The translations under genes and the position numbers were made by a program. DNA of 33,658 nt, taken from positions 1 to 33,658 of the IMG/VR virus record IMGVR_UViG_3300024062_000003. One strand, given 5' to 3'. The notes under the pieces were generated by a model, which was not told where the DNA came from, searched no databases, and worked only from the letters and a program-made list of their open reading frames with translations. This DNA comes from a virus. The first letter of the stretch is position 1. Every line of letters begins with the position of its first letter. This document shows, piece by piece, positions 1,429 through 28,123 of the stretch.

Positions 1429-2427
1429 TGTTTTATTCCTCTAATGCCGCTATGCGGGTTTCTAATGTTTCAATGCGGGTCTGTGCTTCCTGAAGTGCCT
1501 TGATAGCCATCCACATCATCTGCTGTTCTTTAACGCCTTTACGCTCAGTGTTCTCATCTTTCTGATAAGCATCTATTGCTTCGGGGTTGGTCTGCTCAAC
1601 ATCTTGTGCAATTACACCATAATTCTTTGTGCTTTCATCTGCTTGGTGGTTGTAATGGAATGTCTTTAAAGACCAAGACTTCACTGAATCCCATTTAGAT
1701 TCTAGTGGCTCAATGTTCTTCTTTTCACGCTCATCAGACAGATTTACATTATTGGCTTGGTAATTAATAACGCCACCAGTGTAGCCAACATAAAAGGTGT
1801 AGCCAGGGTTTGTTGTATTGTAAACATGGTAGGTGTTGCCAGCAGGGATGCTAGAGAAAGCACCACCATTAGGCCCCACTACAAACCCTCGTGTACTAGC
1901 AGAAGATGTAGTTTTTCCTACAATCAAAGCGCCAATGGAGTCTATGCGCATGCGTTCTGTGTTACTTGTCCAAAACGCCATTGGACTTGCTTCTCGATTT
2001 AACAGGTTTACTTGACGGCCAGCATTAGCCCCATTCATTATTATTTGGAAACCGTCAGCAGTAGTTGTGCCTGTGTCAGCGTTTGTTAAATGAATCCGAG
2101 CATCAGCGTTTGCTGTTGATTCATGCACTGATAACTCATAGTTAGGCGAACTAGTACCAATACCAACATTGCCACCTTGCGGATTTAGCAATAAGTCATA
2201 AGTAGCAGTAGCTAGATTATCTACAAAACCTGCTTGTATGTACGACCTATAGGGAGAAGTAGCTTGTGTGCCAAATAGCATACCATTGCCGCCAAGTCCT
2301 TCAACATTTAGGTTGGCATTTGCTTGGTTGATTGTGTCATTAGAAGAACCAAGAATATGTGCCTTAGAAGCTGGCAAACTAGTACCTATGCCTACTTTGC
2401 CAGCGGGGTCTATGCGCATGCGTTCTG
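901..2427. repeat. Three exact 20-bp direct repeats in the two fibre genes
   Basis: The 20-base sequence GTCTATGCGCATGCGTTCTG occurs at 901-920, 1940-1959 and 2408-2427. On the coding strand it encodes the recurrent ERMRID motif just before GIGT-type repeats. The first copy is in the 358-aa fibre gene and the other two are in the 764-aa fibre gene. Longer diverged similarity also surrounds about 1090-1145 and 2150-2210, where both proteins read TYDLL, then PxGGNVGIGT. The identity at DNA level suggests recent duplication or ongoing recombination between the fibre genes. Confidence 0.85.
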
Positions 2428-3727
2428 TGCCAGCCGCATTGACCCAAGCAAACTCTGCTACGCTTGCTCCAGTTGTTGATTTGAAGAACATTCCCCAGTT
2501 TGCGTCAGCAGAAATAGTACCAGCACCAAAAGCTGAAGTAGAGCCATCAACACCCGCATAACTTAAAGAGTAAGCACTACTTGCCCTTACAATTCCGTTT
2601 GTATCTAAAGCCGTAGCTGGACTACCAGTCCCTATACCCACGCGATTGTTTGTTGAGTCAACGTAGAGGGTGTTGGTGTCAAAGTAGAAATCACCACTCG
2701 CAATCTTGGCAGGTGTAACTGAGCCATCTGCGGGTACAAGTAAAGCTGTGGGCGTTATAGTCATAACCTCTACAGCACTACCAGTTGGAGGAGCAGTGGA
2801 GAATGTTAAGGTTGTCCCACTGACGCTGTAAGTATCTTTGTTCTGGTAGACACCATCTATATAGACCTGAGTGTTATTCTCTACTGTAGGGTTTATAGAT
2901 AAAGTAAGAGTGGTGTCGCTACCGTCACCTGTCATAGTGTCTATGTTTAGATTAGAACCGCCACCGCCACCGCCACCAATAGAACCCCATTCGCCATCGC
3001 TGTAGCCTTCAAACTCCTCAGTAGTAGAGTTGTAACGGAACATACCATTAGCAGGGCTACCGTCACGTTGGGCTGTAGTGCCGCTAGGGACTTTTACAGA
3101 GCCTGTGCCGCTTAGTGTTAGGTTGACAAATGCAGGGCTGTCAGTAGTGGCTACGCCTTGATCTAATGCTTTAACAGATGCTTCGCTAGTCAACTCGCTG
3201 TCCATCAGCGCACCAGCGGCTGTGACGTTAGCTGTGTCTGTAACGTCTGCACTGGCCTCTATGCCATCTAGCTTAGTGTTATCAGCAGAAGTAAAGTTTA
3301 TTTCAGTTAGCCCACCATCCCCAACACTGTATGTTGTGTTAGTGCTAGTAATTGTAAAGTTCGGATAAGTTCCTGAGATGCTGGTAGCGCCAGCGCCAGT
3401 CAACACAACCGTCTGATCCGGTGCCGTGTTGGCAAACTCTGTGCCTGTCAGGCTGAGCCCAGATCCAGCAGTGTAAGTCGTATTAGAATCATCGGTCCAG
3501 ATAGCGTTAGCGCCTGCACCCTGAGACTTTAAAACCTGCCCTGCTGTACCAGTAGACCCGCCAAAACTAGCAGTCCCGGTAAAGGAGGCATTCTGGAGGT
3601 TCGCAGAGCCGCTTAAAAGCCCATCTAAGGCAGTTAAGTTAGAATTGAGCTTGGTACCCCACGTTCCGTCAGAACCGTCTATTTCGGGCAATACAAAGCT
3701 ATATACGGGGGTAGTAGTGTCGGCCAT
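1433..3727 (-). CDS. Large tail fibre with N-terminal anchor and S74 domain
   Basis: A 764-aa protein. Residues 8-40 (VYSFVLPE, then TWGTKLNSNL and LDGLL) match the N-terminus of the neighbouring 263-aa fibre, and probably form the virion attachment end. The middle is a long beta-rich shaft with a poly-Gly stretch (eight Gly near residue 255) and GIGT/ERMRID repeats. The S74 intramolecular chaperone starts at Ser664 (SDEREK, Lys669), continues with GVIAQDVEQ and ends in a coiled coil. It is likely the main receptor-binding or adhesin fibre, self-cleaved after trimer folding. Its ATG overlaps the stop of the upstream 263-aa gene (TAATG at 3727), so the two are coupled. No enzymatic depolymerase motif is evident. 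Confidence 0.9.
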   Translation of the reverse strand: MADTTTPVYSFVLPEIDGSDGTWGTKLNSNLTALDGLLSGSANLQNASFTGTASFGGSTGTAGQVLKSQGAGANAIWTDDSNTTYTAGSGLSLTGTEFANTAPDQTVVLTGAGATSISGTYPNFTITSTNTTYSVGDGGLTEINFTSADNTKLDGIEASADVTDTANVTAAGALMDSELTSEASVKALDQGVATTDSPAFVNLTLSGTGSVKVPSGTTAQRDGSPANGMFRYNSTTEEFEGYSDGEWGSIGGGGGGGSNLNIDTMTGDGSDTTLTLSINPTVENNTQVYIDGVYQNKDTYSVSGTTLTFSTAPPTGSAVEVMTITPTALLVPADGSVTPAKIASGDFYFDTNTLYVDSTNNRVGIGTGSPATALDTNGIVRASSAYSLSYAGVDGSTSAFGAGTISADANWGMFFKSTTGASVAEFAWVNAAGTERMRIDPAGKVGIGTSLPASKAHILGSSNDTINQANANLNVEGLGGNGMLFGTQATSPYRSYIQAGFVDNLATATYDLLLNPQGGNVGIGTSSPNYELSVHESTANADARIHLTNADTGTTTADGFQIIMNGANAGRQVNLLNREASPMAFWTSNTERMRIDSIGALIVGKTTSSASTRGFVVGPNGGAFSSIPAGNTYHVYNTTNPGYTFYVGYTGGVINYQANNVNLSDEREKKNIEPLESKWDSVKSWSLKTFHYNHQADESTKNYGVIAQDVEQTNPEAIDAYQKDENTERKGVKEQQMMWMAIKALQEAQTRIETLETRIAALEE

Positions 3728-4518
3728 TACAGTGCAGTCCTTTTCCAGCGATAAACAACGACATATGGCTGTAGGTTGTTGTGAGCAGCGTCACTGCCTG
3801 CAGTAGAGGTTGTGATCGTTGATGAAACGGAAAGCTGGCCACCTCCCGTTCTGTTTACAGAGCTACTCGTTAGGGCCATAGCAGTAAGAGTGTGATTATG
3901 AGAGGGCATCTCGGCTTCTGTCAGCGTATGCGTTTTAGATCCGCCAGTTTCACCATTTCCGTTAAACTCAGACTGAGAGCTGTCTTGGCCAACCGTTACC
4001 CGCCCGTTGCCAAACCTTGCCCAAGTGCCGCGACTAAACGTGGTGCCCGGATTCTCCGAGCTTGTAGTTTCGTACAGGCAACCTACCGGATAAATGAGGT
4101 CTATAATTTGATTGTTGGTTATTCCACCTGATGTTGCAATCGAGACATTACCCGAGCCATCAATGCTAGTGCTGCCGGTAATAGTCCCTGTCAGAGAGAT
4201 AGTGCGAGCAGTAGCCCATTTTGTTGCGGTGTCTGCGTTGCCAGTTACGTTACCAGCTACATTACCTGTCACATTGCCCGTGAGAGCTCCTGTAACGCCA
4301 CCAGAGGCCGATACGGTAGTAAAGGCACCCGTTGATGCAGCATTAGCGCCAATCGCTGTACCGTCAATTGAGCCGCTGTTTATATCAATGCCAGTAACCG
4401 GCTGATCGCCACCTAAAAGGTCATCCAGCTTTTCTGTGTTGGCGTTTAGATCTCCGCCCCAAGTATTGAGGTTTGCCCCAACCGTTGGTACTGCAAAAGA
4501 GTAGTTTGTTGTAGCCAT
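3727..4518 (-). CDS. Tail fibre with collar-like C-terminal domain
   Basis: A 263-aa protein. The N-terminus (NYSFAVPTVGANLNTWGGDLNANTE) is the same anchor seen in the 764-aa fibre. The middle has short GNVTGNVAGN repeats, consistent with a beta-helical shaft. The C-terminal part, from IYPVGCLYETTSSENPGTTF, resembles the phage tail-collar/short-fibre tip: FGNGRVTVGQD, an HTLTEAEMPSHNH histidine motif (metal binding in this family) and NNLQPYVVVYRWKR at the end. The HNH triplet and LQPY end are the main diagnostic features. It is encoded directly upstream of the larger fibre with a one-base overlap, so a heteromeric or alternative fibre arrangement is plausible. Confidence 0.85.
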   Translation of the reverse strand: MATTNYSFAVPTVGANLNTWGGDLNANTEKLDDLLGGDQPVTGIDINSGSIDGTAIGANAASTGAFTTVSASGGVTGALTGNVTGNVAGNVTGNADTATKWATARTISLTGTITGSTSIDGSGNVSIATSGGITNNQIIDLIYPVGCLYETTSSENPGTTFSRGTWARFGNGRVTVGQDSSQSEFNGNGETGGSKTHTLTEAEMPSHNHTLTAMALTSSSVNRTGGGQLSVSSTITTSTAGSDAAHNNLQPYVVVYRWKRTAL

Positions 4519-4529
4519 TTAATTTGTCC

Positions 4530-4814
4530 TCAAGTCCTAGTATCTTGCCAGTCTGCATCTGACGCTGTTTGATCTGTCCACACTGCCGGGTTAAGTGATG
4601 CATCTTGCCACGTTGCCGGGTTCAATGGTGTTGTATCCCAGATGTTGATTAGGTTAGCCGTCATCAGCGACTGTGTAACCGAGTCAGCAAATATTCTTAC
4701 AAGCTTGCGCAAAAACATTGTTGTGGCGCTAGAGCTGCTAGAGGCCAAGTACATATTGGGCGAGCCCTCAGTGCCATATACCCCGTAGCTGTAATAAAAC
4801 TGCCCGTACTTCAT
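4530..4814 (-). CDS. Small virion-region protein, unknown
   Basis: A 94-aa protein beginning MKYGQFYYSYGVYG, with a serine-rich stretch near residues 25-31. Its C-terminus repeats a Trp-Asp motif three times (PATWQD, PAVWTD, ADWQD), which looks like a short repeated binding element. Its start overlaps the stop of the upstream 123-aa gene as ATGA, so it is coupled to that gene. Position between adaptor-type genes and fibre genes suggests a tail or neck accessory role, but no family is recognised. Confidence 0.75.
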   Translation of the reverse strand: MKYGQFYYSYGVYGTEGSPNMYLASSSSSATTMFLRKLVRIFADSVTQSLMTANLINIWDTTPLNPATWQDASLNPAVWTDQTASDADWQDTRT

Positions 4815-5182
4815 GTCAGAGTCACATCTATATCGCCTATCGAGAAGCGAATAATATCACCAGTGACAATATCTCTACTTGTTTGCAAGCCGGTTGAAAT
4901 CAACATATTTCCGCCACTTATAGCGTCATGGATCGCAGCATAGTTGACAATGCCCCAGTCTGAGCCAGCGCTGTATTCCACGTTATTTGTGTTAGTGCCT
5001 GCCGAGGCCGTCACAGAAAAAGACGCGGATTGGCGAGCATACCCGGTCCCGGTAGTTTCGGTCCCGCCATTTAGCGGATCTCCTGCATATAAAGCCACAT
5101 AGACCGTGGTAGGCGAGGCATATGCCGTATTGGTCAAAACATGGCCCAGCAGTTTATTCTCTAGATAGGGGGTGAAGCTCAT
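4811..5182 (-). CDS. Conserved virion-associated protein
   Basis: A 123-aa protein with the pattern LENKLLGHVLTNTAY, then SPTTVYVALYAGDP, GYARQSASF, WGIVNYAAIHDA, GGNMLISTGL and a final GDIDVTLT. This is a family I recognise from many tailed phages, annotated loosely as a tail fibre or head-associated protein, probably a beta-sandwich. No catalytic residues are apparent. It is coupled at both ends by ATGA overlaps, to the adaptor gene upstream and the 94-aa gene downstream. A structural role at the tail-fibre junction is inferred from this context. Confidence 0.85.
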   Translation of the reverse strand: MSFTPYLENKLLGHVLTNTAYASPTTVYVALYAGDPLNGGTETTGTGYARQSASFSVTASAGTNTNNVEYSAGSDWGIVNYAAIHDAISGGNMLISTGLQTSRDIVTGDIIRFSIGDIDVTLT

Positions 5183-5835
5183 TGCATTCTCCAGTAATTT
5201 GCAGACCTGCTTGTATCGAGGCCCTTAACGCGCATTCCTAGACCTGTGCCTGAGTATTTAGCGCTGTCTGACTCCTCATTCAGTCTCTTGACCGCTGCAC
5301 TGTACAATTGTGCCCATACAGCCACCCTAGCGTCTTCTGCAAGGTAAGGGGCCGAGTGGAGAAGGCTACCATATAGGTAAACGTCAGGTGCCGTAGACAT
5401 CAACCAGTTGGTTGTAGCGGTGTCTGACAGTGCGGGTATTTTCTGCAGGTAAACCAACTCTGTGCTGGCATTGCTATCAGGTGAGGGGAATACCTCAAAC
5501 TGGTCCTCAATGTGTCGATAGAACCGGGGCTCACCAGCAACATTGTCACTGCTGGCTCTGCGCTCATCCATTGCTGCTGTGCTTAGAAACTGCAGGGGTC
5601 TGGTGCCATTACCCAGTATGGTAAAGCGGATAGTCTCCACCCAATCGCTGGGACGGGTCAGGTACTGATCGTTCAGGGTAGCCGTTGCCCGGTTCTCCAT
5701 CTGCCAGTGACGCACATCACGGGCCATCTGAGCCTCTGCTAGACTGATAAATGTCGGTATTACTGCGGTCAGGTCTTGGCGGTTAAGAAAGTCCGCCATA
5801 CTGGCCTTCAGCTCTGTGTAATTTGTTAGTGCCAT
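5179..5835 (-). CDS. Head-tail adaptor (SU10/gp4-like)
   Basis: A 218-aa protein beginning MALTNYTELKASMADFLNR, followed by a helical ISLAEAQMARDVRHWQME segment and the RPSDWVETIRFTI strand, then ARVAVWAQLYSAAVKRLNEES near the end. This is the pattern of podovirus adaptor or neck proteins that bind below the portal (SU10-adaptor type). The start at 5835 is supported by a GGAG ribosome site, and a promoter-like TGTTAAAATCGGCC lies 18 bases upstream. It sits far from the portal gene (23040-25139), which is unusual for an adaptor. The assignment is by motif memory and could be refined by structure prediction. Confidence 0.75.
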   Translation of the reverse strand: MALTNYTELKASMADFLNRQDLTAVIPTFISLAEAQMARDVRHWQMENRATATLNDQYLTRPSDWVETIRFTILGNGTRPLQFLSTAAMDERRASSDNVAGEPRFYRHIEDQFEVFPSPDSNASTELVYLQKIPALSDTATTNWLMSTAPDVYLYGSLLHSAPYLAEDARVAVWAQLYSAAVKRLNEESDSAKYSGTGLGMRVKGLDTSRSANYWRMQ

Positions 5836-5852
5836 TATCTACTCCGATTATT

Positions 5853-5866
5853 GGCCGATTTTAACA
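5853..5866 (-). promoter_or_regulatory. Late promoter-like motif
   Basis: Minus-strand TGTTAAAATCGGCC in the 35-base gap between the 1194-aa gene and the adaptor gene. The TAAAAT hexamer (5858-5863) would place a transcript start near 5851, giving a short leader with GGAG before the ATG at 5835. It belongs to the six-site motif family described in the findings. No good -35 hexamer is present. Confidence 0.5.
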
Positions 5867-5870
5867 TTTT

Positions 5871-8800
5871 TTACTGCAATAGTCCGATTGGTTTACTGTT
5901 AGGTAAGCCTTCAGGCATCACCAGCTCGCCCTCTAAAGGGTTTAGCCGCCCCAGTATGCCCGGTCCACCCGGCTCACCTACAATGCGCTTACCGCCCTGC
6001 AATGCAGCTTTACCAGCGCCCAAGCCATATGCGGAAAGCACCAATGTTGCAGCGTAGGGTAATCGTGGCGTGACAGAATCTTGAAAAGACTGAGGCGTGG
6101 CCGTATACGCAGCCACAACGTCCTGTACTGTCTTGTCAACTTTGTCGTTAATACTGCGCCCGGAATCGCCCTTCCATGCAAATGCCTCTTTGAGCTCTGG
6201 TACTACATACTTCTCAAGGCCAGCAGCAATTGCACCTGTGACATCTTCATACGCCTCGGACGGCTTGCCAAACACAGAATCAGAGCCAGACACCTTCTCG
6301 TAAAATCCAGAGTCAGGAGAAAACAGGCTGCCAGTTGCGCCCACAATAACCTTGGCCAGATCTTCAGCGCCTCGCATAGCAAACTCAGTGCCAAGCTGTA
6401 AGGTGCCGGGACGATCAACGTCAAGCAGTTTGCGCGTAGTGTCTTTAAGCTTGATAGCTTCCCTGCGGCTCTTGAGCGCATCGCCATATTTTGCGAGCTG
6501 TTGTGATCTGGCATTCTGAGCCATCATTTGATTGATGATCCCACCATCTGCGGTTTGCTGCATTCTGGAAAAGTCATCATCAAGGCTGGAGGCGTCTGAC
6601 CGGAAGTTAGGAAGGTCTAAGAGCGCAAGCTCATTAGTCAGCTCATCGTCACTGCCAGCCCTAAAGATCTGCTGGCTTGTAGGCTCAAATGCATCCTCTG
6701 AGTAATACGGAGATGTATCCCGCAATCCCAAGTCTGCAAAAGTCTGATCCCTGTATTCAACATTTCTTGCCTCAACCTCGCCCATCAAACTTCGGTACAT
6801 TCCGTAGGGAGAGCGTGCTCCAGCCTCGCCTACTGTCTCAGCATTGAACCTGTCAGCAATTTGCTTTTCGACCTTTAGGCGCTCTAGCTCATTTAGCTCC
6901 TTGATCGACATAGAGCCCTGACCCACTTCGTTACTTTTTGCTTCAAGCTCTTGTAGTCTTTTGCTTCCAGCCGGAGTTAGTCCAACACCATCATAAAACG
7001 CATCCCTGATTCTTTCTTCTTTTTCAAAGCTGCGAGCAGAGCCCCCAGACGCAAAGCCTTCGCGGTCCTGTATGGCGTGCTGCAGCTCATGCAAGACGGT
7101 TGCTCTTTGCTCAGCCGGTGAGCTCTTGCCGCTGATAACAATCATTTCAGGTGACCACTCTTCATTAGAGTTAAAATGGCCCTCTTTGTGAAACCCTTGG
7201 TCTGCTGGCATATTTCTGTCAACAATAAACTCGATGTCACCTAAAGGCCCGTAAGTGCCCCTAGATCTATACTCTTCAATCTCACCATCCATATCCCTAA
7301 CGGTGGGTTTTCTGCCGCCTTTCTCATATTGAGACAGCAATTCTGGGTCATCAACAATGTCAGCAATAGTCCCAGTGTAATACTGCCTTCCCTCTTCAAT
7401 TTGAGGGATGTTAATTTTTGTCTTCGTGTTAGGCAGCTCTGTTTTCCACTGTCCGTCAGTCCCAAGCTCCCATCCGGTACGCTGCCAGATACGGGCACGA
7501 TCCATGCCCTCGTTTGACATCTTCTTGGCCATCCCCAGAAGGTCTTGCCGTCCAGCACCAAGTTTGGATAGAGACCCTACGATGCTCGCATCGCTCTCTT
7601 CACTAGCGCCTAGCAAACCTGTGCCTAGTGCAACAGATGTGCCACCGGCCAGCAGGTTGCGGCTAGATGGGTCTTTAACCTGTGCGCTAGGGGACCTGCT
7701 TAGCTTGACCACCTTAACTGCGCTGCCTGCTGAGATGTCTTTTGCTGGTACAATCTCTACACTAAACCCGTCACCCAGCACGCCCTGCACATACTCCTGC
7801 AGCTCAGGCCGAGTAAAGCCTTTTTGATATGATCCCCGGCTGGTTACGAATGCTCCACTCTCGTCTTGCGGTGTTGCTGTCTTAGATTTCTTGAGCTCGT
7901 TGACAGCGCTTGCTGATCTAGTCTGTATTACAGCCATGCCGCCATCTTGCAGTGCATCGCCAATGTTAAGCACAGCCATGTCTCGCGGCCTAAACACCTG
8001 CCCATCAATGACATCAGTAGGCGGGATGACGTTGAGCACGTTGGTGCTTACAATTTGACCATATGAGCCTCTAGGTATGTCTTGGCCAGAGGTATAGGTA
8101 GGGGTGAACCCCTCGCCAGCAAATGGCTCAAATGTCTCATCAAAGCCCATAGCCTTTGCATTAATGCCATGCCCTGCACCGTAATCTAATGACTTGCCGC
8201 TGGCTCCCTGATTCTTGAGATAGGCTGCGGCTGACTTGGCGGTGTTGACAGTGTTGGCTCGCTGCGTAGTCTTTGCGTCTGCTGCTACTACCTTTTTGGC
8301 AGTATCGACTACACCAGCCTCAACCTCTTGGCCGGAGTAACCCATGCCAACTGCACCAGCTAAAGCGCCTAACCCAACGGCAATGGGAGATCTAACCTTC
8401 TTACCCTTGGCGCCTTGCTCGTCCACCAAGTCTTGAGTGATTAGACCACCAAATATTCCGGTTTGCATGGCTCTACCGGGAGAGGTTCGGGTTGATAGAT
8501 AATCAATGCCGGGGGGCCCCTCCCTGAATGTGCCGTCCTTCTTCACAGCCCTTGCAAGCCTATTTGGGTTGAGATCCATGGCTGTCACATCAGTATCCAG
8601 CGTACCCAGATAGCTCCCTGCAATTGCATCAGGGTAGGTAGCGTTGCCTTGGCCAGATAGTATTCCGCCCTCTAAGTCCATAACCCCAACATTCTTAAAC
8701 CCGCCAACATTTGGCAGCAACTGAGTTTGATCTGACACCGCTAGTCTAGCTTGAGGCAGGGATATGCCCCCAAGATTCCTAAACTCCGTGTCCATCATGG

Positions 8801-9455
8801 ATTTGATGCTCTTGCGGCCCTTATCATTTACCTGTCCAAACTGCACCAAACTATAAGGGTCCTCTACTCCTACAAAGTCAGGTATCAATAGCTCGATCTT
8901 TTTGTTGAGTTGGCTGCGATTGTTTGCAGGCATATTGCGCCCCGCCCATGACATCATGGTCTGTCCAGTCATATGGGCAAAGTCGCCCCCGGTAGGAGCC
9001 ATCTGGAAGGGCATGTGAACCGGAGCTTGGCCGTACAAATTAAAGAGCTCATCGCCTGCTGTTTTAAGATCTGCAATTGGGGATACGCCAGAGGCCCACA
9101 GTTGATTGTTCTCACGCATATAGTCTTGGCCGCCTGTCAGCCTGATTGGATGCGCTAAGGGAACGTCACCAATACCCTCAAGAATGCCGCCTGCAGCCGT
9201 TAGGTCAGACATTGACGTTAAGAAAGGCCTGCCTACCAAGTCTTGCAGGGTTATTGGATTTACAGGCTGTAGCGTCCCAGTTGGGGCCACATTTGGTCTA
9301 AACTCAAGGGGATCTTTTACCCGGTACTCGGTAGTCTTTCCGGGATGGAATCTGGGGTCAAACTCTGAGCGATTGTACGTTAGCTCATCCAGAATTTTAG
9401 GGATATTATTTAGGATGCCATCCATACGGGTAGGTTTGTTGGGATCTCTTGCCAT
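5871..9455 (-). CDS. Polyvalent virion protein: methyltransferase-like and zincin domains
   Basis: A 1194-aa protein, the largest in the genome. Residues 410-590 look like a class I SAM-dependent methyltransferase: motif I is SLDYGAGHG at about 423-431, followed by VSTNVLNVIPP and an AVIQTRS strand. Residues 640-860 resemble a large polyvalent-protein domain (LPD23-like), with TVLHELQHAIQ at about 786-796 giving an HExxH zinc site, and a downstream GEVEARN that may supply the third ligand. Short hydrophobic Gly/Ala stretches occur near 357-373 and 601-616 and again near the C-terminus. Its place between terL and the adaptor suggests a virion component injected with the DNA and acting in the host cell. 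Domain calls are from motifs only. The extreme N-terminus is unassigned. Confidence 0.8.
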   Translation of the reverse strand: MARDPNKPTRMDGILNNIPKILDELTYNRSEFDPRFHPGKTTEYRVKDPLEFRPNVAPTGTLQPVNPITLQDLVGRPFLTSMSDLTAAGGILEGIGDVPLAHPIRLTGGQDYMRENNQLWASGVSPIADLKTAGDELFNLYGQAPVHMPFQMAPTGGDFAHMTGQTMMSWAGRNMPANNRSQLNKKIELLIPDFVGVEDPYSLVQFGQVNDKGRKSIKSMMDTEFRNLGGISLPQARLAVSDQTQLLPNVGGFKNVGVMDLEGGILSGQGNATYPDAIAGSYLGTLDTDVTAMDLNPNRLARAVKKDGTFREGPPGIDYLSTRTSPGRAMQTGIFGGLITQDLVDEQGAKGKKVRSPIAVGLGALAGAVGMGYSGQEVEAGVVDTAKKVVAADAKTTQRANTVNTAKSAAAYLKNQGASGKSLDYGAGHGINAKAMGFDETFEPFAGEGFTPTYTSGQDIPRGSYGQIVSTNVLNVIPPTDVIDGQVFRPRDMAVLNIGDALQDGGMAVIQTRSASAVNELKKSKTATPQDESGAFVTSRGSYQKGFTRPELQEYVQGVLGDGFSVEIVPAKDISAGSAVKVVKLSRSPSAQVKDPSSRNLLAGGTSVALGTGLLGASEESDASIVGSLSKLGAGRQDLLGMAKKMSNEGMDRARIWQRTGWELGTDGQWKTELPNTKTKINIPQIEEGRQYYTGTIADIVDDPELLSQYEKGGRKPTVRDMDGEIEEYRSRGTYGPLGDIEFIVDRNMPADQGFHKEGHFNSNEEWSPEMIVISGKSSPAEQRATVLHELQHAIQDREGFASGGSARSFEKEERIRDAFYDGVGLTPAGSKRLQELEAKSNEVGQGSMSIKELNELERLKVEKQIADRFNAETVGEAGARSPYGMYRSLMGEVEARNVEYRDQTFADLGLRDTSPYYSEDAFEPTSQQIFRAGSDDELTNELALLDLPNFRSDASSLDDDFSRMQQTADGGIINQMMAQNARSQQLAKYGDALKSRREAIKLKDTTRKLLDVDRPGTLQLGTEFAMRGAEDLAKVIVGATGSLFSPDSGFYEKVSGSDSVFGKPSEAYEDVTGAIAAGLEKYVVPELKEAFAWKGDSGRSINDKVDKTVQDVVAAYTATPQSFQDSVTPRLPYAATLVLSAYGLGAGKAALQGGKRIVGEPGGPGILGRLNPLEGELVMPEGLPNSKPIGLLQ

Positions 9456-9501: not shown

Positions 9502-10791
9502 TTAAACGATTCCCTGAAGGTTCCTTCTGATAGGGTCACCCCAGTCATTAAAGGGCCTGTAACCGACTGCTAGGTAGCGGAATGCGTCTGCACAGTGTGA
9601 TGTCCAATCGTGTAGCGGTTTGCCACGCCAGACCATGTTCTTGTCGTCATAGTCCCTGCGGTACTGCCTGAGAGCATCTACGCCACGCTCGCACTTCTTG
9701 AGATCGAACCAGCAGCGGCTAATCATGGTCCTAGCTGCCTGTATCCCGTCATCCACCCCCAGTTGAGGGGCAATGGTTACCGGGCGTACTGCCAAGGTAT
9801 CGAGGGTCTCCAGCCGTGACTTGCCTGTGCCCATCTCCCGGACCCGGACATCATGCGGCAGGATATGGCTCTCGTAATGGTAGCCCTTCTCAGCTAATAC
9901 TCTTGCGTAGTGATCCAGACCCACGCCACTGCACTCATAGTAGTCAATAAGGCGCACCTCTTGCCCCACCATCTGCGCAAACCATATGGCAGTGCTATCG
10001 CCTACCCCAAGATCCCAAGCCGTTACAACGCCAACAGAGCGCTCGTATGGCACCTCACCAAGACGGCCTTCGTTGTTAACTGCACGCATTTCTTCAGCAT
10101 AGAACGCACCATCAGCATGGATCAGCATGTCGCCATTCCAGATATGGTCATACAGTTCTGGGCGCTTAGCCTTGTCATCCTTGCGCTCTTTGTCCAGCAC
10201 ATCAGGGAAGTAGGGATTGTTCTCCCAGTTCATCTGGATGATCTTGCTGTCCTCTGGAGGGTCTAGCCTGAATCGCCTGTGCGTAGCTGAGCGCTTTGTT
10301 TCTGGATTCCACGTTACCCAGATCTCTGAGTCCTCTTCCCGGACAGTTGGTATTAGCTTCTGCCATGCGCTGTCAGACACTCCCTCAGCCTCGTCTACCC
10401 ACGCTAGAATGATCCTAGCCTTTGACTTGATGCTGTCGAGGTTTCGCCTTAGACCGGCAAAGACATAGTTAATACGGCCATCACGGGACCTGACAAACTT
10501 CTCACCAATCTCGTAATACGCATTGAGCCAATCCACGCTGCGGATAGCTGACTTTATCTCTTCAAGGCTAGACTCATCCAGAGAGTTGAGGTGCTCACGG
10601 GCACAGAGGATCTGGCCACTCTTTCCTGCCATCCCCCACTGGTAACCACGCACTGCAGTCATCAGGGCAAAGGATCTGGTCTTGCCTGAACCACGGCCTC
10701 CAAAGGCTCCCCGGTATCTGGCGGACCCTTCAAAGATCGAGACTATCTTGGGTGGTAGGCGTATCTCAGCCTTAGTGCATTTTTGGGTCAT
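9502..10791 (-). CDS. terL: Terminase large subunit (PBSX/Sf6-type)
   Basis: A 429-aa packaging motor and nuclease. The ATPase domain shows Walker A GGRGSGKT (residues 31-38), Walker B ILAWVDEAE (129-136) and a coupling-type IWVTWNPETKR (157-167). The C-terminal RNase H-like nuclease has TAWDLGVGDS with Asp260 as a metal ligand, an LIDYYECSG strand, and HCADAFRYLA near the end. Length and motifs match the PBSX/Terminase_3 group that includes Sf6 gp2, phages that package by headful from a pac site. It overlaps terS by 20 bases and has no clear ribosome site of its own, so it probably depends on translation of terS. Headful packaging agrees with the circular assembly. Confidence 0.95.
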   Translation of the reverse strand: MTQKCTKAEIRLPPKIVSIFEGSARYRGAFGGRGSGKTRSFALMTAVRGYQWGMAGKSGQILCAREHLNSLDESSLEEIKSAIRSVDWLNAYYEIGEKFVRSRDGRINYVFAGLRRNLDSIKSKARIILAWVDEAEGVSDSAWQKLIPTVREEDSEIWVTWNPETKRSATHRRFRLDPPEDSKIIQMNWENNPYFPDVLDKERKDDKAKRPELYDHIWNGDMLIHADGAFYAEEMRAVNNEGRLGEVPYERSVGVVTAWDLGVGDSTAIWFAQMVGQEVRLIDYYECSGVGLDHYARVLAEKGYHYESHILPHDVRVREMGTGKSRLETLDTLAVRPVTIAPQLGVDDGIQAARTMISRCWFDLKKCERGVDALRQYRRDYDDKNMVWRGKPLHDWTSHCADAFRYLAVGYRPFNDWGDPIRRNLQGIV

Positions 10792-11595: not shown

Positions 11596-11813
11596 TAGTC
11601 GTATACCTCGTCACTATATTGGTAATGTAACAGCAGCTCGCAGTAGTGCATGGCCTTCTTGACGTCCTCTGCTCCGTTCTTACCCTTGTGCCGGGTGATG
11701 TACTTAATCACGTTGCCCTGAAAATAGTCAAGCTCATTCGCTGCAATATACTCTATGGGCTGGATGGCCAACTTGTAGTGGCTGCCACCCTCCTGCTTAT
11801 CCAGTGCGCTCAT
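11595..11813 (-). CDS. DUF3310 protein (T7 gp1.7-like fold family)
   Basis: A 72-aa protein with the DUF3310 signature: GGSHYK, IQPIEYIAANELDYFQGNVIKYITRHK, then KNGAEDVKKAMHYCELLL. Members occur in many phages. The T7 gp1.7 nucleotide kinase belongs to this superfamily, so a nucleotide-metabolism role is possible but not shown. I place the start at 11813 and not at the in-frame ATG at 11819, because GGAGG directly abuts the latter while it lies six bases before 11813. The gene overlaps the end of the phosphoesterase gene by 17 bases. Confidence 0.85.
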   Translation of the reverse strand: MSALDKQEGGSHYKLAIQPIEYIAANELDYFQGNVIKYITRHKGKNGAEDVKKAMHYCELLLHYQYSDEVYD

Positions 11814-12636
11814 CTTCATCCTCCATATATGTCCTAGCTAGGTAGTCTAGGCTGATAGGCATCTCGTCAAACTCACCGTCCTGCACCTCGTTAAGCATCC
11901 AGATACCACGCCAGCTATTGTTAGTCTGGTAGTTGAGGTACTCCTCAGCGTGCGTGTAAAAGATCCCTGCGAATATCCCGGTCAATCTCTTGCCATCGGC
12001 CCTCTTGTTGAAGGCTATCGCCCGGTCCTGAACGTGGCCCATCACGGTGGACATATGGAGCTTTTTAAGCATGAGGTCAGGGCTCGATACAGGGCGCCCC
12101 ATCACACCTGAGCAGTGGTAGTGGGCGTAACAAACGCCATCAATCACTACGGGTTTGAGGAAGTCATGCACCTCCCAGCCCATCTCCTTTAGCTGCAGAT
12201 CGTCATAGCTCATTAGGCCCTCTAGCTTAACGTCAGCATCCAAAGCTCTCTCTATGCGGTACTCATGGTTGCCAATGGTAAACACCAGCCGAGGGTTCCA
12301 TTGTTTCTTCTTGTCGTGCTTTAGTTTGGCCTGCTCCTCCCTGATGGGGTCTAGGAAGGCTCTCATTGCGTTTATACCGGCGTTAACGTCCTCGACATAC
12401 CTGCGCCCCTCAAAAGACTTGCTGCCCTTAGCATCGTGGCTGGACAGCGAGGGGAAGTCCCAGTGGTCACCTATGTGAACAATAACGTCTGGTTTTGTTT
12501 TGGCGGCATACATTCCTGCCCAGCGGAGGTGGTCCCACGACTGACCCGGCTTTGTCTGGGTGTCTGGTATGACCATGTGGCGAGGCAATGGCTTGCCTTT
12601 TCTGCGTTTGAATAAATCTCGTAGGTAATCGAACAT
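11797..12636 (-). CDS. Calcineurin-like metallophosphoesterase
   Basis: A 279-aa protein with phosphoesterase motifs in order: HMVIPDTQ (metal motif I, about residue 20-27), VIHIGDHWDF (motif II, GDxxD), FTIGNHEYRIER (motif III, GNHE), CYAHYHCSG and VMGHVQDRA (late His motifs). The usual DxH of motif I reads DTQ and the usual GHTH reads GHVQ, a variant common in phage members. Substrates could be phosphodiester bonds in nucleic acids or nucleotides. The N-terminus is basic (FKRRKGK). Start 12636 is chosen because GGAGG lies nine bases upstream; an upstream GTG at 12678 lacks such a site. A possible promoter precedes it at 12659-12686. Confidence 0.88.
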   Translation of the reverse strand: MFDYLRDLFKRRKGKPLPRHMVIPDTQTKPGQSWDHLRWAGMYAAKTKPDVIVHIGDHWDFPSLSSHDAKGSKSFEGRRYVEDVNAGINAMRAFLDPIREEQAKLKHDKKKQWNPRLVFTIGNHEYRIERALDADVKLEGLMSYDDLQLKEMGWEVHDFLKPVVIDGVCYAHYHCSGVMGRPVSSPDLMLKKLHMSTVMGHVQDRAIAFNKRADGKRLTGIFAGIFYTHAEEYLNYQTNNSWRGIWMLNEVQDGEFDEMPISLDYLARTYMEDEDERTG

Positions 12637-12658
12637 TGGGGTAGCCCTCCGTGGCTGT

Positions 12659-12686
12659 ATTGTACACCAGTTGATCACTGGCGCAA
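12659..12686 (-). promoter_or_regulatory. Possible promoter before phosphoesterase gene
   Basis: Minus-strand TGTACAAT contains the -10 hexamer TACAAT at 12659-12664. A partial -35, TTGCGC, lies at 12681-12686 with a 16-base spacer. The predicted start near 12652 leaves a leader of about 16 bases with GGAGG before the ATG at 12636. It overlaps the end of the preceding gene. Confidence 0.35.
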
Positions 12687-17259: not shown

Positions 17260-17610
17260 ATGAAATTAGTAGAAGGCAACACCATCACTATTAACGGCCA
17301 CGACTGGCTTATAGATAACGTGTTAAACACAAACGATGCAGGCGAGACTTGCATACAAGTTAGGGCGCTCACCAAAAAGCGTTTTACTACTCGCAACCCG
17401 GATGGGTTTGTAGGTTGGCAAACGGCCCTTTGGGTGCGGGAGGACGCAACTCCTAGCCCTTTTGATGATTATGCTCAAGGTGAGTATGATTGCCTGCATG
17501 GCTATGATGCCTTGGCAGGAAGATCTGAGTGCTATTACAACGGCTTTGCCGATCAGTACGCGGCAGAGCAAATTGCAACTAACATATCTGAGTTGGGGAG
17601 ACTACTATGA
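17260..17610 (+). CDS. Unknown protein heading the recombination cassette
   Basis: A 116-aa acidic protein starting MKLVEGNTITINGHDWLIDNV. It contains a GFVGWQTALWVRED strand and a Tyr/Asp-rich segment (FDDYAQGEYDCLHGYDAL), ending in a helix with ISELGRLL. There is no membrane segment and no recognised family. It is the first gene after the rightward promoter, uses the AAGGGGAAC ribosome site of the early leader type, and overlaps the Rad52-like gene by four bases (ATGA), so it may be a partner of the annealing system. Confidence 0.8.
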   Translation: MKLVEGNTITINGHDWLIDNVLNTNDAGETCIQVRALTKKRFTTRNPDGFVGWQTALWVREDATPSPFDDYAQGEYDCLHGYDALAGRSECYYNGFADQYAAEQIATNISELGRLL

Positions 17611-17999
17611 AAAACTGGGATCAAATCAGGGAGGAGCTCAAGGCTCCTTTCGCCACTAACGTGCTTAAATTTAGAGCCGGTGGTGGTGGTAAGCAGTTGG
17701 CGTACATTGATGCGCGTGCTGTTATGAAGCGTCTTGATGACGTTGTTGGTATGGAAAACTGGCAGTGTCACTATGAAGACCTGAGTGGCCGGGTTATCTG
17801 CAGGCTGTCCATCCGTGTTGACGGAGAGTGGATCACCAAGTGTGATGGCGCCGGGGACACCAAGATAGAGGGCGAGAAGGGCGGTATTTCAGACGCTCTT
17901 AAACGCGCTGCAGTATTATTTGGTGTAGGGCGTTACCTCTATTACTTGCCTGCAGGGACTACTGTCAACAACCTGCCAGCATGGGCGGTGCCACAATGA
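17607..17999 (+). CDS. Rad52-family annealing protein
   Basis: A 130-aa protein with the Rad52/22 core: LAYIDARAVMKRLDDVVGMENWQ (residues 31-53), CRLSIRVDGEWITKCDGAGDT and GGISDALKRAAVLFGVGRYLYYLP (92-115). It pairs complementary single strands coated by SSB. It lacks the long C-terminal tail seen in many Rad52-type phage proteins, ending shortly after GRYLYYLP, as in other compact phage members. Neighbours are an exonuclease and SSB, a standard SynExo arrangement. It overlaps the exonuclease gene by four bases (ATGA). Confidence 0.9.
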   Translation: MKNWDQIREELKAPFATNVLKFRAGGGGKQLAYIDARAVMKRLDDVVGMENWQCHYEDLSGRVICRLSIRVDGEWITKCDGAGDTKIEGEKGGISDALKRAAVLFGVGRYLYYLPAGTTVNNLPAWAVPQ

Positions 18000-18754
18000 A
18001 ATATACTGCTGAGGCTGGACACTGGTACACTCGCTCTGGTGAGCCTGCATATACCTATGAGACTGGTTGCGGGGAAACCAAAAAGACGACACTGAGAGAG
18101 GCCAGAAAACTTAATCTGGTCCCCTCGGTAACATCTATTCTGGGCATTGCTGATAAACCTGCATTGACCCATTGGAAAATTTTGCAGACCATTCAGGCCA
18201 CCAAGGATGTCAGGCGCTCTGACTATGAGGATGAAGGGAGCCACCTAAAGGCCGTTCTAAGGGAATCTAAGCGCGTTGGCCGTGAGGCGGCAGAACGGGG
18301 CACCGAGATCCACGCAATGATTGAGAAGGGCTTTAGAGGCGGTTTAAAGGGCCCTGCGTATACTGCAGTAAGGGAGATTCTCGATATGCTGCACCCAAAT
18401 GACACTTGGCGTGCGGAAGATAGCTTTTGTAGCAGACTGGGCTATGGTGGTAAGGTTGACCTTAGCTCATTGAGTGGCGTATTTGTGGATTTTAAAACCA
18501 AAGACAATTTGGCTGACAAAGAGGTCAGCAAGCTAGTGTATGATGAGCATGGCATGCAGTTGAGCGCCTATGCTGAAGGTATGCGCTTTTATAATCCTGA
18601 GAGAATTTCTATTTTTATTGATAGGGATGACCCTACTGTCGTTAAGCATTACGTTTGGGACCGTGATAGCCATGAAAGACACTTGGCCATGTTTAAGGCC
18701 TTGTTGACTTACTGGCAGCTTGCGAAAAACCACACCACTGAAACTGGAGAATAA
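17996..18754 (+). CDS. RecB-like PD-(D/E)XK exonuclease
   Basis: A 252-aa protein. Motifs of the Cas4/RecB-like nuclease fold: REAAERGTEIHAMIE (RGTxxH, about residues 95-109), then GKVDLSS (metal Asp) and FVDFKTKD (DxK), followed by HGMQLSAYAEGM with the QxxxY motif. The order H, D, DxK, QxxxY is diagnostic. It would resect double-stranded ends to feed the Rad52-like annealing protein encoded just before it. The start at 17996 makes an ATGA overlap; an ATG at 17981 is less suitable. Confidence 0.9.
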   Translation: MKYTAEAGHWYTRSGEPAYTYETGCGETKKTTLREARKLNLVPSVTSILGIADKPALTHWKILQTIQATKDVRRSDYEDEGSHLKAVLRESKRVGREAAERGTEIHAMIEKGFRGGLKGPAYTAVREILDMLHPNDTWRAEDSFCSRLGYGGKVDLSSLSGVFVDFKTKDNLADKEVSKLVYDEHGMQLSAYAEGMRFYNPERISIFIDRDDPTVVKHYVWDRDSHERHLAMFKALLTYWQLAKNHTTETGE

Positions 18755-18755
18755 T

Positions 18756-19139
18756 ATGAATGTTTTAATTTTTACTGGCAATTGCGGGGCAGATATGGAA
18801 GTGCGTCACACGCCAAATGGCAAAGTGATTGGTTCTGTACCTGTTGCGTGCAAATCAGGTTGGGGCGATAATGAAAAAACCACTTGGGTAACCTGCAAGG
18901 TGTTTGGTGAGAAGCGCGTACCAGCACTTTCCAACCTGCTCAAGAAGGGCGCACCCGTTACAGTACAGGGCGAGTTTTCGCTGGATACTTGGGAGCATGA
19001 AGGCAAAAACTACAGCAAGGCCTGCTTGGTGATCAACGACATCAAGGTCCACTCTGCAGGTCAGCAGGAAAGCCAAAAGCCAGCTCAAGTAGCGCCACCT
19101 GCAAACAATGTATTTGATGAATCAGACATCCCATTTTAG
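18756..19139 (+). CDS. ssb: Single-stranded DNA-binding protein
   Basis: A 127-aa OB-fold SSB. It begins MNVLIFTGNCGADMEVRHTPNGKVIGSVPVAC, continues with TTWVTCKVFGEKR and VQGEFSLDTWEHEGK, and has a short linker rich in Gln, Pro and Ala. The C-terminus DESDIPF is the acidic tip by which bacterial SSBs contact partner proteins. The start at 18756 follows GGAGA, immediately after the exonuclease stop (18752-18754). It completes the SynExo-SSB recombination set. Confidence 0.95.
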   Translation: MNVLIFTGNCGADMEVRHTPNGKVIGSVPVACKSGWGDNEKTTWVTCKVFGEKRVPALSNLLKKGAPVTVQGEFSLDTWEHEGKNYSKACLVINDIKVHSAGQQESQKPAQVAPPANNVFDESDIPF

Positions 19140-25139: not shown

Positions 25140-26786
25140 TTATTGTAGCCTCTGTTCTTTATCTTCAAGCAGTCCTGCCTGATACAGTGCATTATATACC
25201 TCTGGGGTGCGATACGGGGCTGTGATTTGTGCGGCTTTATTGCCTCCAAACTGCTGAAGACCTCCCATCGCCTTACCTAAAGCGTGTGAAACCTCGCCAG
25301 CCACTCTGGGAGAAGATGCCGCACCCATCAACACTGCTTGCGGCAATTGTCCTGTAAGCGCCATGCTTGATGTTAGCGCTGGCTGAGTAGCAGACTGCAA
25401 TCCCCTCGGCATCACTGTAGACATTGTTTGCCCAGCAACGGCAGGAATTATTTGTCCGCCAGACGCCTCATCGAGAATCTGGCCAAGGCGCAGGCGCTCT
25501 CCATAGTTAGTGTTTACGTTGTTGCGCATCAAAGACGTTAGCTTTCGCAAGGCCGTGTCAGCAGAAGCCTTGTTACCCAGACTTAGCGCCCTTTCCATTT
25601 CTCTTAATAAATCCGCAGATTTGGAATAATTATCCATAGCCTTGGCATAGTCAGGAGCCTGCTGCGCTACAGAATTTTTAATAGAGTCATATACCTGTTT
25701 GACAGCGGCATAGGCGGTCCTGTTTTCGGCTGGTAGCCCATCTAGAATTTCACCAACAGATTGCTTGAGTTGATCTAACCCTTCTGGCGTGTGAAATTGC
25801 TCTGGGTCAAGCTGTCTCCACTGCTGAACCTTATCGTCTACAGCCTGCAATGCTTTTGCTACAGACTCGTTTTTAATTTGGCCCTTATATGCAGCAAACT
25901 TGTTAAACGAATCGCTGAGCGCATTAACTGTGTCATCAAAACTTAGCACTGTTTTGTCTTTCGATACGCCTGCCATGTTTTGTCTGTAGGTTTGTGACGC
26001 TTGAGCTCTAATGCTTGCCAGAGCCGCACGGGCCGTGTCAACAATATCGGTAGGGTTAGCTGTGCCGCGCATAGAAGATGTAAACAAAGCGCTCGCCTCA
26101 CCTCCTTCCTGCCCTGCTCTAAACGCCTGCTTAATCGGTTCAGGCCCAACGCCAGTAAGCCCGCCAGAAAGTCCTGTAACAGCGCTGGCTGCCACAGGGG
26201 CGATTGTTCGAGTGGTAGCTGATAGAGGCTCAATTGCCGCCCCTACACTAGACATTTTTTCTCCAACTTTAGACAATGCTGGAACCTTTGATACGACCGC
26301 TCCCCCTCCAGTAAGTAGGCTTGCCGCGTCAGCTAGTATTGCGGCAGGATCTTCTGCTACAGCCCTCTTAAATCCCTCCTCGCTGCCGTACTGTCGAACA
26401 TAATGCTGTGCTACTGCGTCATACACCTCATCACCGCGCTCGTCCCTCCCAAGGGCTTCCACTACACTGTCAGGCACTGCCCTTTGCACTATCCCGCGAG
26501 CTAGTTTTTGCAGCCCAGTAAGGGTATCTATTGGGCTGGCCACGGCCTCTACCAAGCCTTCTCCAAGGTTATAAACAGATCCCGGAAAACTAGCCACTCC
26601 TGACATTAAGGCCTGTGGCCAAGTTCTTTCTGGCTCTACCTCAGCATCGGGGGTGACTGCCGGTACTGGCTGGCTAGATCGCTGAACCTCCAGCGCCTTC
26701 AGGTAAGCATCTTCATCTGAGAGCCTAACGTCAGAGGGAACGATAACCGTCTCGCCATTAATAATTACATCGTACTCATATGCCAT
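25140..26786 (-). CDS. Probable DNA-ejection protein
   Basis: A 548-aa protein. The N-terminus (MAYEYDVIINGETVIVPSDVRLSDEDAYLKAL) is followed by hydrophobic amphipathic segments (LMSGVASFPGSVYNLGEGLVEAVASP, about residues 58-85; VAASAVTGLSGGLTGVG, about 195-212). The remainder is long helices rich in Ala, Gln and Ser. This mix of amphipathic and helical segments is like ejected internal virion proteins of podoviruses (P22 gp16/gp20-like function). No enzymatic domain is evident. It is coupled to the upstream 445-aa gene by a one-base overlap and lies next to the portal. Confidence 0.7.
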   Translation of the reverse strand: MAYEYDVIINGETVIVPSDVRLSDEDAYLKALEVQRSSQPVPAVTPDAEVEPERTWPQALMSGVASFPGSVYNLGEGLVEAVASPIDTLTGLQKLARGIVQRAVPDSVVEALGRDERGDEVYDAVAQHYVRQYGSEEGFKRAVAEDPAAILADAASLLTGGGAVVSKVPALSKVGEKMSSVGAAIEPLSATTRTIAPVAASAVTGLSGGLTGVGPEPIKQAFRAGQEGGEASALFTSSMRGTANPTDIVDTARAALASIRAQASQTYRQNMAGVSKDKTVLSFDDTVNALSDSFNKFAAYKGQIKNESVAKALQAVDDKVQQWRQLDPEQFHTPEGLDQLKQSVGEILDGLPAENRTAYAAVKQVYDSIKNSVAQQAPDYAKAMDNYSKSADLLREMERALSLGNKASADTALRKLTSLMRNNVNTNYGERLRLGQILDEASGGQIIPAVAGQTMSTVMPRGLQSATQPALTSSMALTGQLPQAVLMGAASSPRVAGEVSHALGKAMGGLQQFGGNKAAQITAPYRTPEVYNALYQAGLLEDKEQRLQ

Positions 26787-28123
26787 TATGGAACAATCCT
26801 TTCTGTTACTTGTGTAGAGCCATCCCGAAATTTCGAAAGCTTCTGTTGTTTTTCATAAATTTTGGCTTTTTCCAAATCTATGAGATCTTGCATCTCTGCT
26901 GCAGCCTCTTTCATGGCCGCAACATAGTCTTCGTCTGATAGATTGATGTTATTTAGCCTATTGAGCGCGGCTGTAGCTGCCGCGCCTTCGGTTTCGGTAA
27001 TCTGGCCGCCACCTTTAATAGATTCAAATGCTCGCAGGAAGGTTTGCCCCTTCACCTGATCAATAAAGGATTCGCCTAATGACTGACCTGATGTGAGTGC
27101 AGGGAATTTGCCTTGCATGGCACCCACCCTGCTCTGTATAGCATTTAATTTTGCTGGATCTTTTAAAAGCTTAACAAGCTTAGCCCGATGATTCTCCAGC
27201 ATAGTGACACGATTCTTAGCGTCAACCTCTTCCTCCATCGCGTTTCTTATGTCTACAGTTCCAAACTCTTTCTGGCCTGCTACTGCACTAATATTTTTAG
27301 GGATCATTTTTACAACTGAGCCCTGATCATTTATCAACGCAGTTGAGGTTCCCATATCCACTTCGGTTAAGCCTGCTGAGACCGTTGCACCTTCTGGCAA
27401 ATTAATTCGCTTTATGTTTCCGTAATTAGACGTTACATAGGGTATTACTGTGTCCCCTTCAGTATAGGTTCGCACAGTAGTACCAAAGGTTTCAGCGCCC
27501 TTTTGTCCTGCAATTGGCTTAATCTCTTGAGTCACAGTATTTACTGAGTACAAGCTTTCAGGAATAAAGCCTTCCCGTCCTTTTTCTGCAAGTTGAGCGC
27601 CTGTCATTGTCACAAAGGTATCTTTGGGAGCTCGCAACGTAGATGTAACGTATGCTTGATAAATAGCGCTTGCGTTATCTGGGTTTGCCTCAATCATATC
27701 CGCCACTTGCCGGGCTGTCGGATCATCAGATTTTCGCAGCATCTCTACGGTCTGATTGGCTTGATTCCTCACAGTTCGCAGAGCCATGAGGTCACTAGCA
27801 CGCTTCTGTAGCTGCGCATTAGGGTTAAGGGTCATCTGGTTAAATGCAGCAGCCAAGCCAGCCATAGTGGCCGGGTCCTTCAGGCCGGTTCTTATGCGGT
27901 CCATCATTCCCGGCTTTTGAGCAGGGGGCGGGGGAGGAATTACAGGCTTAGGTGTCATCATAGGCTGTGGAGCAGCGCCTGATCCCATAGGAGATTGACC
28001 GCCAAAATTGATCCCCTGCATTAGACCTTCTGCAGATACCGGGACAGAGTTCTGAGCATTTTGAGCACGCTTCTGTCTTTCAAGCGCAATCATTGTCTCT
28101 ACATCGAAAATACCGTTAGCCAT
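26786..28123 (-). CDS. Probable internal virion protein
   Basis: A 445-aa protein, starting MANGIFDVETMIALERQKRAQ, with a Pro-rich stretch near residues 55-70 (MTPKPVIPPPPPAQKPGMMD). The rest is helical: PAQLQKRASDLMALRTVRNQANQ-type segments, with EEEVDAKNRVTMLENHRAKL and a C-terminal coiled coil (AAAEMQDLIDLEKAKIYEKQQKL). The sequence resembles internal or ejection proteins of marine podoviruses. Its function is inferred from location between the S74 protein and the 548-aa protein. Confidence 0.7.
   Translation of the reverse strand: MANGIFDVETMIALERQKRAQNAQNSVPVSAEGLMQGINFGGQSPMGSGAAPQPMMTPKPVIPPPPPAQKPGMMDRIRTGLKDPATMAGLAAAFNQMTLNPNAQLQKRASDLMALRTVRNQANQTVEMLRKSDDPTARQVADMIEANPDNASAIYQAYVTSTLRAPKDTFVTMTGAQLAEKGREGFIPESLYSVNTVTQEIKPIAGQKGAETFGTTVRTYTEGDTVIPYVTSNYGNIKRINLPEGATVSAGLTEVDMGTSTALINDQGSVVKMIPKNISAVAGQKEFGTVDIRNAMEEEVDAKNRVTMLENHRAKLVKLLKDPAKLNAIQSRVGAMQGKFPALTSGQSLGESFIDQVKGQTFLRAFESIKGGGQITETEGAAATAALNRLNNINLSDEDYVAAMKEAAAEMQDLIDLEKAKIYEKQQKLSKFRDGSTQVTERIVP

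Follow-up and report, generated by a model that had tools for sequence, protein, structure and literature searches.

We studied a stretch of viral DNA of 33,658 nucleotides (nt), IMG/VR record IMGVR_UViG_3300024062_000003 (henceforth the window, in whose numbering coordinates are given), with a focus on a single open reading frame (ORF) which encodes a protein of 1194 amino acids (aa) and fills a slot whose cargo of modules differs between sister phages. The ORF is on the minus strand, with its ATG at 9455 and its stop at 5873-5871; it begins 46 nt past the end of terL and stops 35 nt ahead of the adaptor ORF. A near-identical copy of the protein (99.8%) was found in another IMG/VR record (L006; labels of this form denote loci fetched for comparison). 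A preliminary description of the window, which left the strand unstated, had placed the protein between terL and the adaptor, as profile matches bear out, and had noted SLDYGAGHG, HELQH and a distal GEVEAR in the one chain; all three are present and, their core residues being invariant in relatives, are not due to chance. It had passed over an N-terminal domain, an LPD23 domain, a helical C-terminal part and two repeated junctions. The features are as follows (the slash in a junction follows its alanine):

9502..10791, minus strand: terL, upstream flank of the slot (phrog_3717, 2e-61)
5871..9455, minus strand: ORF of the polyvalent protein, 1194 aa, with terL on one side and the adaptor on the other
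8415..9275, minus strand: N-terminal module (NT), aa 61-347, a conserved unnamed domain (alignment; AlphaFold2 (AF2) model confidence, pLDDT, about 60-96 in most blocks)
8316..8384, minus strand: junction 1, aa 358-380, IAVGLGALAGAVGMG-YSGQEVEA/G (DNA identity step against L010)
7707..8294, minus strand: class I S-adenosylmethionine (SAM) methyltransferase module (MT), aa 388-583 (conserved motifs, predicted structure, fold match)
7656..7700, minus strand: deletion scar, aa 586-600, SRSPSAQVKDPSSRN (what remains of the C-terminus of an ART-like module that is intact in L010)
7587..7655, minus strand: junction 2, aa 601-623, LLAGGTSVALGTGLL-GASEESDA/S (motif; DNA identity step)
7413..7538, minus strand: LPD23 domain, aa 640-681 (Pfam PF18838, E 3.1e-9, 36.9 bits, cut-off 27)
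6741..7253, minus strand: M78/IrrE-like zincin, about aa 735-905 (conserved motifs and IrrE profile match; weak model support)
5874..6542, minus strand: C-terminal module (CTa), aa 972-1194 (low-confidence model, largely of helices)
5179..5835, minus strand: SU10-type adaptor, downstream flank of the slot (PF24175, 1.2e-33)

With terL as anchor we fetched 36 loci. Of those that extend far enough, most have a large ORF between terL and the adaptor, set off from terL by a few dozen nt. The content of this slot is variable: at least eight module types occur in varying combinations in sister phages whose terL genes are 97-99% identical and whose adaptors are 97-100% identical. For example, nucleotide identity between L010 and the window is 98.9% in terL, 46% in the N-terminal module, 99.2% in the methyltransferase and 53% in the zincin, while the terL of L008 is only 72% identical to that of the window and its zincin module 95.3%. 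The slot of L097 holds a methyltransferase alone (336 aa), and that of L037 is empty, with a terL-adaptor gap of 355 nt that offers no space for such a gene. An architecture table was drawn up for about 20 slot proteins, with FDP, X3, EIQ, GN2 and ART-like as working module names (ZN denotes LPD23 plus zincin). When the ART-like, GN2 and FDP modules were queried by tblastn, cultured phages returned no match. The table includes the following arrangements:

window: NT-MT-ZN-CTa
L010: NT-MT-ART-ZN
L012: NT-GNAT-FDP-GN2-CTa
L019 and L020: FDP-ZN-CTb
L029 and L031: NT-FDP-GN2-CTc
L030: NT-GN2-X3-CTc
L055-L061: NT-MT-EIQ

The junctions share a layout of about 15 hydrophobic Gly/Ala/Leu-rich residues followed by a motif resembling SEE[AVST][DE]A/[AGS] (more loosely, E-x-[AVST]-[DE]-A/[AGS]; e.g., SEESDA/S, GQEVEA/G, SEDADA/S or SEETEA/A), and the region of junction 1 (aa 356-389) is disordered in the model. 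Across 20 slot proteins, [ASTV][DE]A was found within 14 residues after 41 of 61 hydrophobic segments, compared with 5.9% of random 14-residue windows; the same count in other phage lineages with the same domains gave 17 of 232. Ends of local (BLAST) alignments likewise fell close to junctions in 73 of 221 cases (random mean 20.4 +/- 4.7, maximum 37 in 2000 shuffles). At the DNA level, each of nine pairwise comparisons showed a step in identity, with about 25-30% on one side and about 95-100% on the other, located no more than roughly 25-100 nt from a junction. In L030, one junction has the left side of junction 1 of L031 and the right side of its junction 2, with 20 identical bases between them (GGTAGTGAAGATGCTGATGC). 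In distant lineages the junction codons differ but the protein motif is kept; taken with the DNA steps, this means that the peptide is under selection and that DNA has also been exchanged recently. What is new here is this direct evidence of module exchange at the junctions of one slot, which carry a repeated peptide motif.

The window itself bears a trace of such an event: at an AGGT microhomology, the end of its methyltransferase runs directly into the terminal residues of the ART-like module. Most simply, the window would be a deletion derivative of an L010-like arrangement, having lost the ART-like module that L010 retains, and would carry a zincin module of the L008/L020 type. Module exchange and the scar can be read from the sequence comparisons themselves; the direction of the window's change and the recombining enzyme we infer. 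For the latter the genome offers a plausible candidate in a Rad52-type annealase, which may recombine on 20-60 bp of shared sequence (Rad52-like recombinases are described in PMC3945230 as driving phage mosaicism), and which is encoded alongside an SSB and a NinG gene:

17607..17999, plus strand: Rad52/Rad22-family annealing recombinase, candidate driver of module exchange (PF04098, 3.7e-20)
18720..19139, plus strand: single-strand binding protein (SSB; PF00436, 7.7e-15)

Within the methyltransferase module, SLDYGAGHG occupies aa 422-430 (motif I, LDYGAGHG, being aa 423-430). Eight relatives (28-45% identity) all share D39, G43 and G45 of the SAM loop, E58/P59, VLNV and QKGF. The AF2 model has a pLDDT of about 80-97 in most blocks, and fold comparison with VIA gave Z 12.7-15.5 against solved methyltransferases, with methyltransferases only in the top rows and METTL6 (8owx) as the best match (Z 15.5, 192 aligned, rmsd 4.3). 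As modelled, the domain has the class I methyltransferase fold. Its score of 17.2 bits against Pfam Methyltransf_23, below the curated cut-off of 27, lowers its assignment to that family, not to the superfamily. The ratio of non-synonymous to synonymous changes (dN/dS) of about 0.08-0.11, together with the invariant catalytic motifs, points to selection on enzyme function. The (D/N/S)PP(Y/F) motif IV of amino-DNA methyltransferases is absent, its position being NVLNV in seven of the eight relatives and AVLNV in one, and DNA is thus not a proven substrate; for want of this motif, we rejected the reading as a DNA-adenine methylase (N6A/N4C, DarB-like). Four of the eight relatives match TIGR04096 (DNA phosphorothioation-associated putative methyltransferase; best 5.5e-8), which is therefore a sequence relative of the window's module, although the window's own domain does not get below E 0.05 against the model, and the window genes that were examined include none recognisable as a phosphorothioation gene. 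A scan of genomes for the methyltransferase returned only five loci in metagenome-assembled genomes, too few to name a host.

In the zincin, HELQH is aa 789-793 (7077-7091, minus strand) and GEVEAR aa 892-897 (6765-6782, minus strand). The patterns LHE-x-QH and GE-x-EAR, with the putative metal-binding HEXXH and the downstream glutamate ligand, are invariant across 11 zincin relatives, and all 11 relatives also match LPD23. The zincin profile finds IrrE (PDB 3dte) at E 8e-4, and Pfam M78 scores 20.2 bits for the whole protein and 22.6 for the isolated domain (cut-off 22). As in IrrE/PprI and the M78 (ImmA/IrrE) metallopeptidases, there is an HEXXH helix which aligns to IrrE together with the strands before it; unlike them, the window zincin has a long insert between HELQH and the GEVEAR glutamate, is fused to LPD23, and showed no helix-turn-helix or DNA-binding domain. 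The dN/dS of the zincin module (6741-7538) is 0.83 against L008 and 0.50 against L020, compared with about 0.06-0.12 for terL in close sister phages; such fast protein change is suggestive of a host-directed protease.

The outer modules also move. NT occurs in 51 fetched ORFs, lying C-terminal to the methyltransferase in L076, L077 and L100-L106 and appearing in zincin ORFs in L159-L161; it had no match in Pfam or PDB and nothing better than E 0.06 in PHROG, no fold search having been made on NT alone. The window's CTa is 94-98% identical to those of L012 and L007, and a Foldseek search of the C-terminal half against PDB returned noise only (14-3-3 and other helical proteins). For the full 1194-aa protein, a direct search of PDB gave no match and NCBIfam gave one weak match only, which is meaningless.

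The slot and its modules sit among virion genes. In the window, the SU10-type adaptor together with an SU10 portal elsewhere in the genome (PF23899, 8e-192) identifies an SU10-like podovirus. Of the fetched IMG/VR loci, 52 of the 78 with the methyltransferase and 40 of the 76 with the zincin also have, within the DNA retrieved, a gene recognised as terL, portal, scaffold, capsid or adaptor, and this gene is on the same strand every time. The methyltransferase also has stand-alone relatives among virion genes, and in phages of the HMO-2011 type, a group counted among the most abundant of those known from the sea (PMC6918029), the module adjoins the portal gene and is annotated only as a hypothetical protein. 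The GNAT module of L012 (the first of its kind in that protein) is related to annotated acetyltransferases and to an annotated 'minor capsid protein', which back its label. In Microcystis phage MJing1, the methyltransferase and a DUF7178-family protein are two adjacent genes after the portal, each with a short hydrophobic tail, whereas in Roseobacter phage CRP-738 they form one ORF in the same place; these split and fused forms support the modules as cargo units that work when separate. A literature search found no virion proteomics or mass-spectrometry evidence for any carrier of the modules.

By the definition of Iyer et al. 2017 (PMC5512222), the window protein is a phage polyvalent protein, and it would probably be packaged and delivered as such. 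It combines at least two disparate domains (the methyltransferase fold and LPD23-zincin) with a large polyvalent protein associated domain (LPD23), and is encoded among the late virion genes of a terminase-portal phage, between terL and the SU10 adaptor; the preliminary description's label of a giant polyvalent protein thus holds, as do its two domains. In PMC5512222, recombinational variability is merely suggested, for a kinase locus, and linkers, transmembrane parts and shuffling go without mention. By contrast, exchange at junctions with a repeated motif is seen directly in the slot proteins, and the window methyltransferase is not the DarB-type adenine methylase of that paper. MuF polymorphic toxins of temperate phages (PMC5576092) are likewise phage-borne proteins with exchangeable effector modules, but the window protein has no MuF match (Pfam searched to E 1), and slot proteins vary in the middle and at both ends, not at the C-terminus only.

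We thus propose that, in an SU10-like podovirus, the gene between terL and the adaptor serves as a cargo slot, and that its product is a string of swappable modules (here the N-terminal domain, the methyltransferase, LPD23 with the M78-like zincin, and the C-terminal module) which recombination at the junctions would delete, insert or exchange. By gene position and by analogy with PMC5512222, packaging of the product and its delivery along with the DNA are most likely; each module would then have a target of its own, with the methyltransferase serving as a modifier and the zincin as a protease that cleaves either a host protein or the polyprotein. To this account as a whole (slot, swappable modules, junction recombination, and a packaged product with independently acting modules) we give a probability of roughly 0.7.

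Several observations weigh against it. The zincin model is poor (mean pLDDT 45), with PprI (8sln) retrieved by VIA at Z 4.5 amid noise; structure prediction by segment, which the preliminary description had proposed as a check, thus upheld the methyltransferase (VIA Z up to 15.5), while the zincin fold draws its support mainly from sequence. The ART-like and GN2 labels were assigned by eye. A slot protein is missing from close cultured relatives: Paracoccus phage KLEP18-1 and Sulfitobacter phage pCB2047-A, whose terL genes are the closest among isolates, have none at this position. Some of the mosaic contigs (L010 and L030) each come from a single metagenome. Finally, the junction statistics are drawn from related proteins and are hence not independent, for which reason we put more weight on the DNA comparisons.

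The best placed of the alternatives, though still doubtful, is that the zincin is the polyprotein's own processing protease, which would cut the junctions before packaging or after entry and so free the modules. Iyer et al. 2017 (PMC5512222) argued for self-processing from P1 DdrB and related cases; here a junction immediately precedes the zincin module in the window and in most of its slot relatives, and one also lies right before LPD23 in three unrelated zincin ORFs (L177, L204 and L209). However, junctions persist in slot proteins without any zincin (L012, L029, L030, L031, L033, L055 and L057-L061), and the dN/dS of the zincin (0.83 and 0.50) is explained no less well by an external target that changes. 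Since zincin-free proteins keep their junctions, we rejected processing in cis by the zincin as the sole reason for them.

Somewhat less probable, and in our view unlikely, is that the junctions are signal-peptide-like processing sites, i.e., that the cargo is a polyprotein cut into effectors by the host signal peptidase or another shared protease while crossing the host membrane, the same sites doubling as recombination points. Most junctions do have a layout that resembles a signal-peptidase site, with a basic residue, a stretch which is only weakly hydrophobic, (A/V/S/T)-(D/E)-A and then a small residue. If processing does occur, the cargo would be a true bacteriophage polyprotein whose whole effectors are exchanged between phages at cleavage sites. 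So far, domain lists have been the main basis for arguing whether giant polyvalent proteins act whole or processed and how they gain new activities; a slot that stays in place between near-identical flanks provides a natural comparison series for module exchange at defined junctions, and the junctions supply exact peptide bonds at which cleavage, and thereby polyprotein processing, can be tested.

It is improbable that the protein is mainly a structural or ejection-channel component with decorative domains rather than an effector. The methyltransferase-bearing protein of Myrna, gp97, carries a tape measure annotation, the C-terminal part of the window protein is helical, and the product of 26786-28123 in the window resembles a protein released on infection. 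Unlike a structural part, the slot may be empty (L037) and its content varies among near-identical phages, and the selection on enzyme function seen in the methyltransferase is evidence against mere decoration.

We consider it more improbable still that methylation and proteolysis were purposely joined in one injected anti-host or anti-defence tool, as the preliminary description had supposed. Both domains do share a chain within a virion gene block, and the pair recurs in the unrelated L071. Yet among the fetched loci the methyltransferase occurs in 93 ORFs and the zincin in 95, and both in only four: the window, its near-copy L006, L010 and L071. The order is reversed in L071, and sister phages freely lose or replace either domain; the pairing is incidental and not a unit. 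L071 itself (4201-8043, zincin first and methyltransferase second) is an HMO-2011-type-like locus in which the ORF lies past the portal.

That the mosaics are metagenome assembly artefacts is very improbable: the slot relatives are all metagenomic contigs and L010 and L030 are single records, but reading frames are open across every junction and architectures recur in separate records (L012/L013/L016/L018; L024/L025/L026; L029/L046; L055-L057; L008/L009/L014; and L006, which repeats the window).

Some further features of these genomes were observed. In the window, the product of 26786-28123 has a match to phrog_2534 ('released from the phage upon host infection'; 5e-7) and is likely to be an ejected protein. 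The C-termini encoded by 352-1428, 1433-3727 and 28573-29559 resemble S74 intramolecular chaperones (PF13884 4e-7 for 28573-29559, the sole one checked), and 11797-12678, which lies upstream of terS with a few small genes in between, encodes a calcineurin-like phosphoesterase slightly under the Pfam cut-off. In L008, an adaptor-like ORF (7267-9174, 636 aa) contains the SU10 adaptor domain several times over, as divergent copies in tandem, and the adaptor of L031 (11998-12936) has an insert of about 85 aa.

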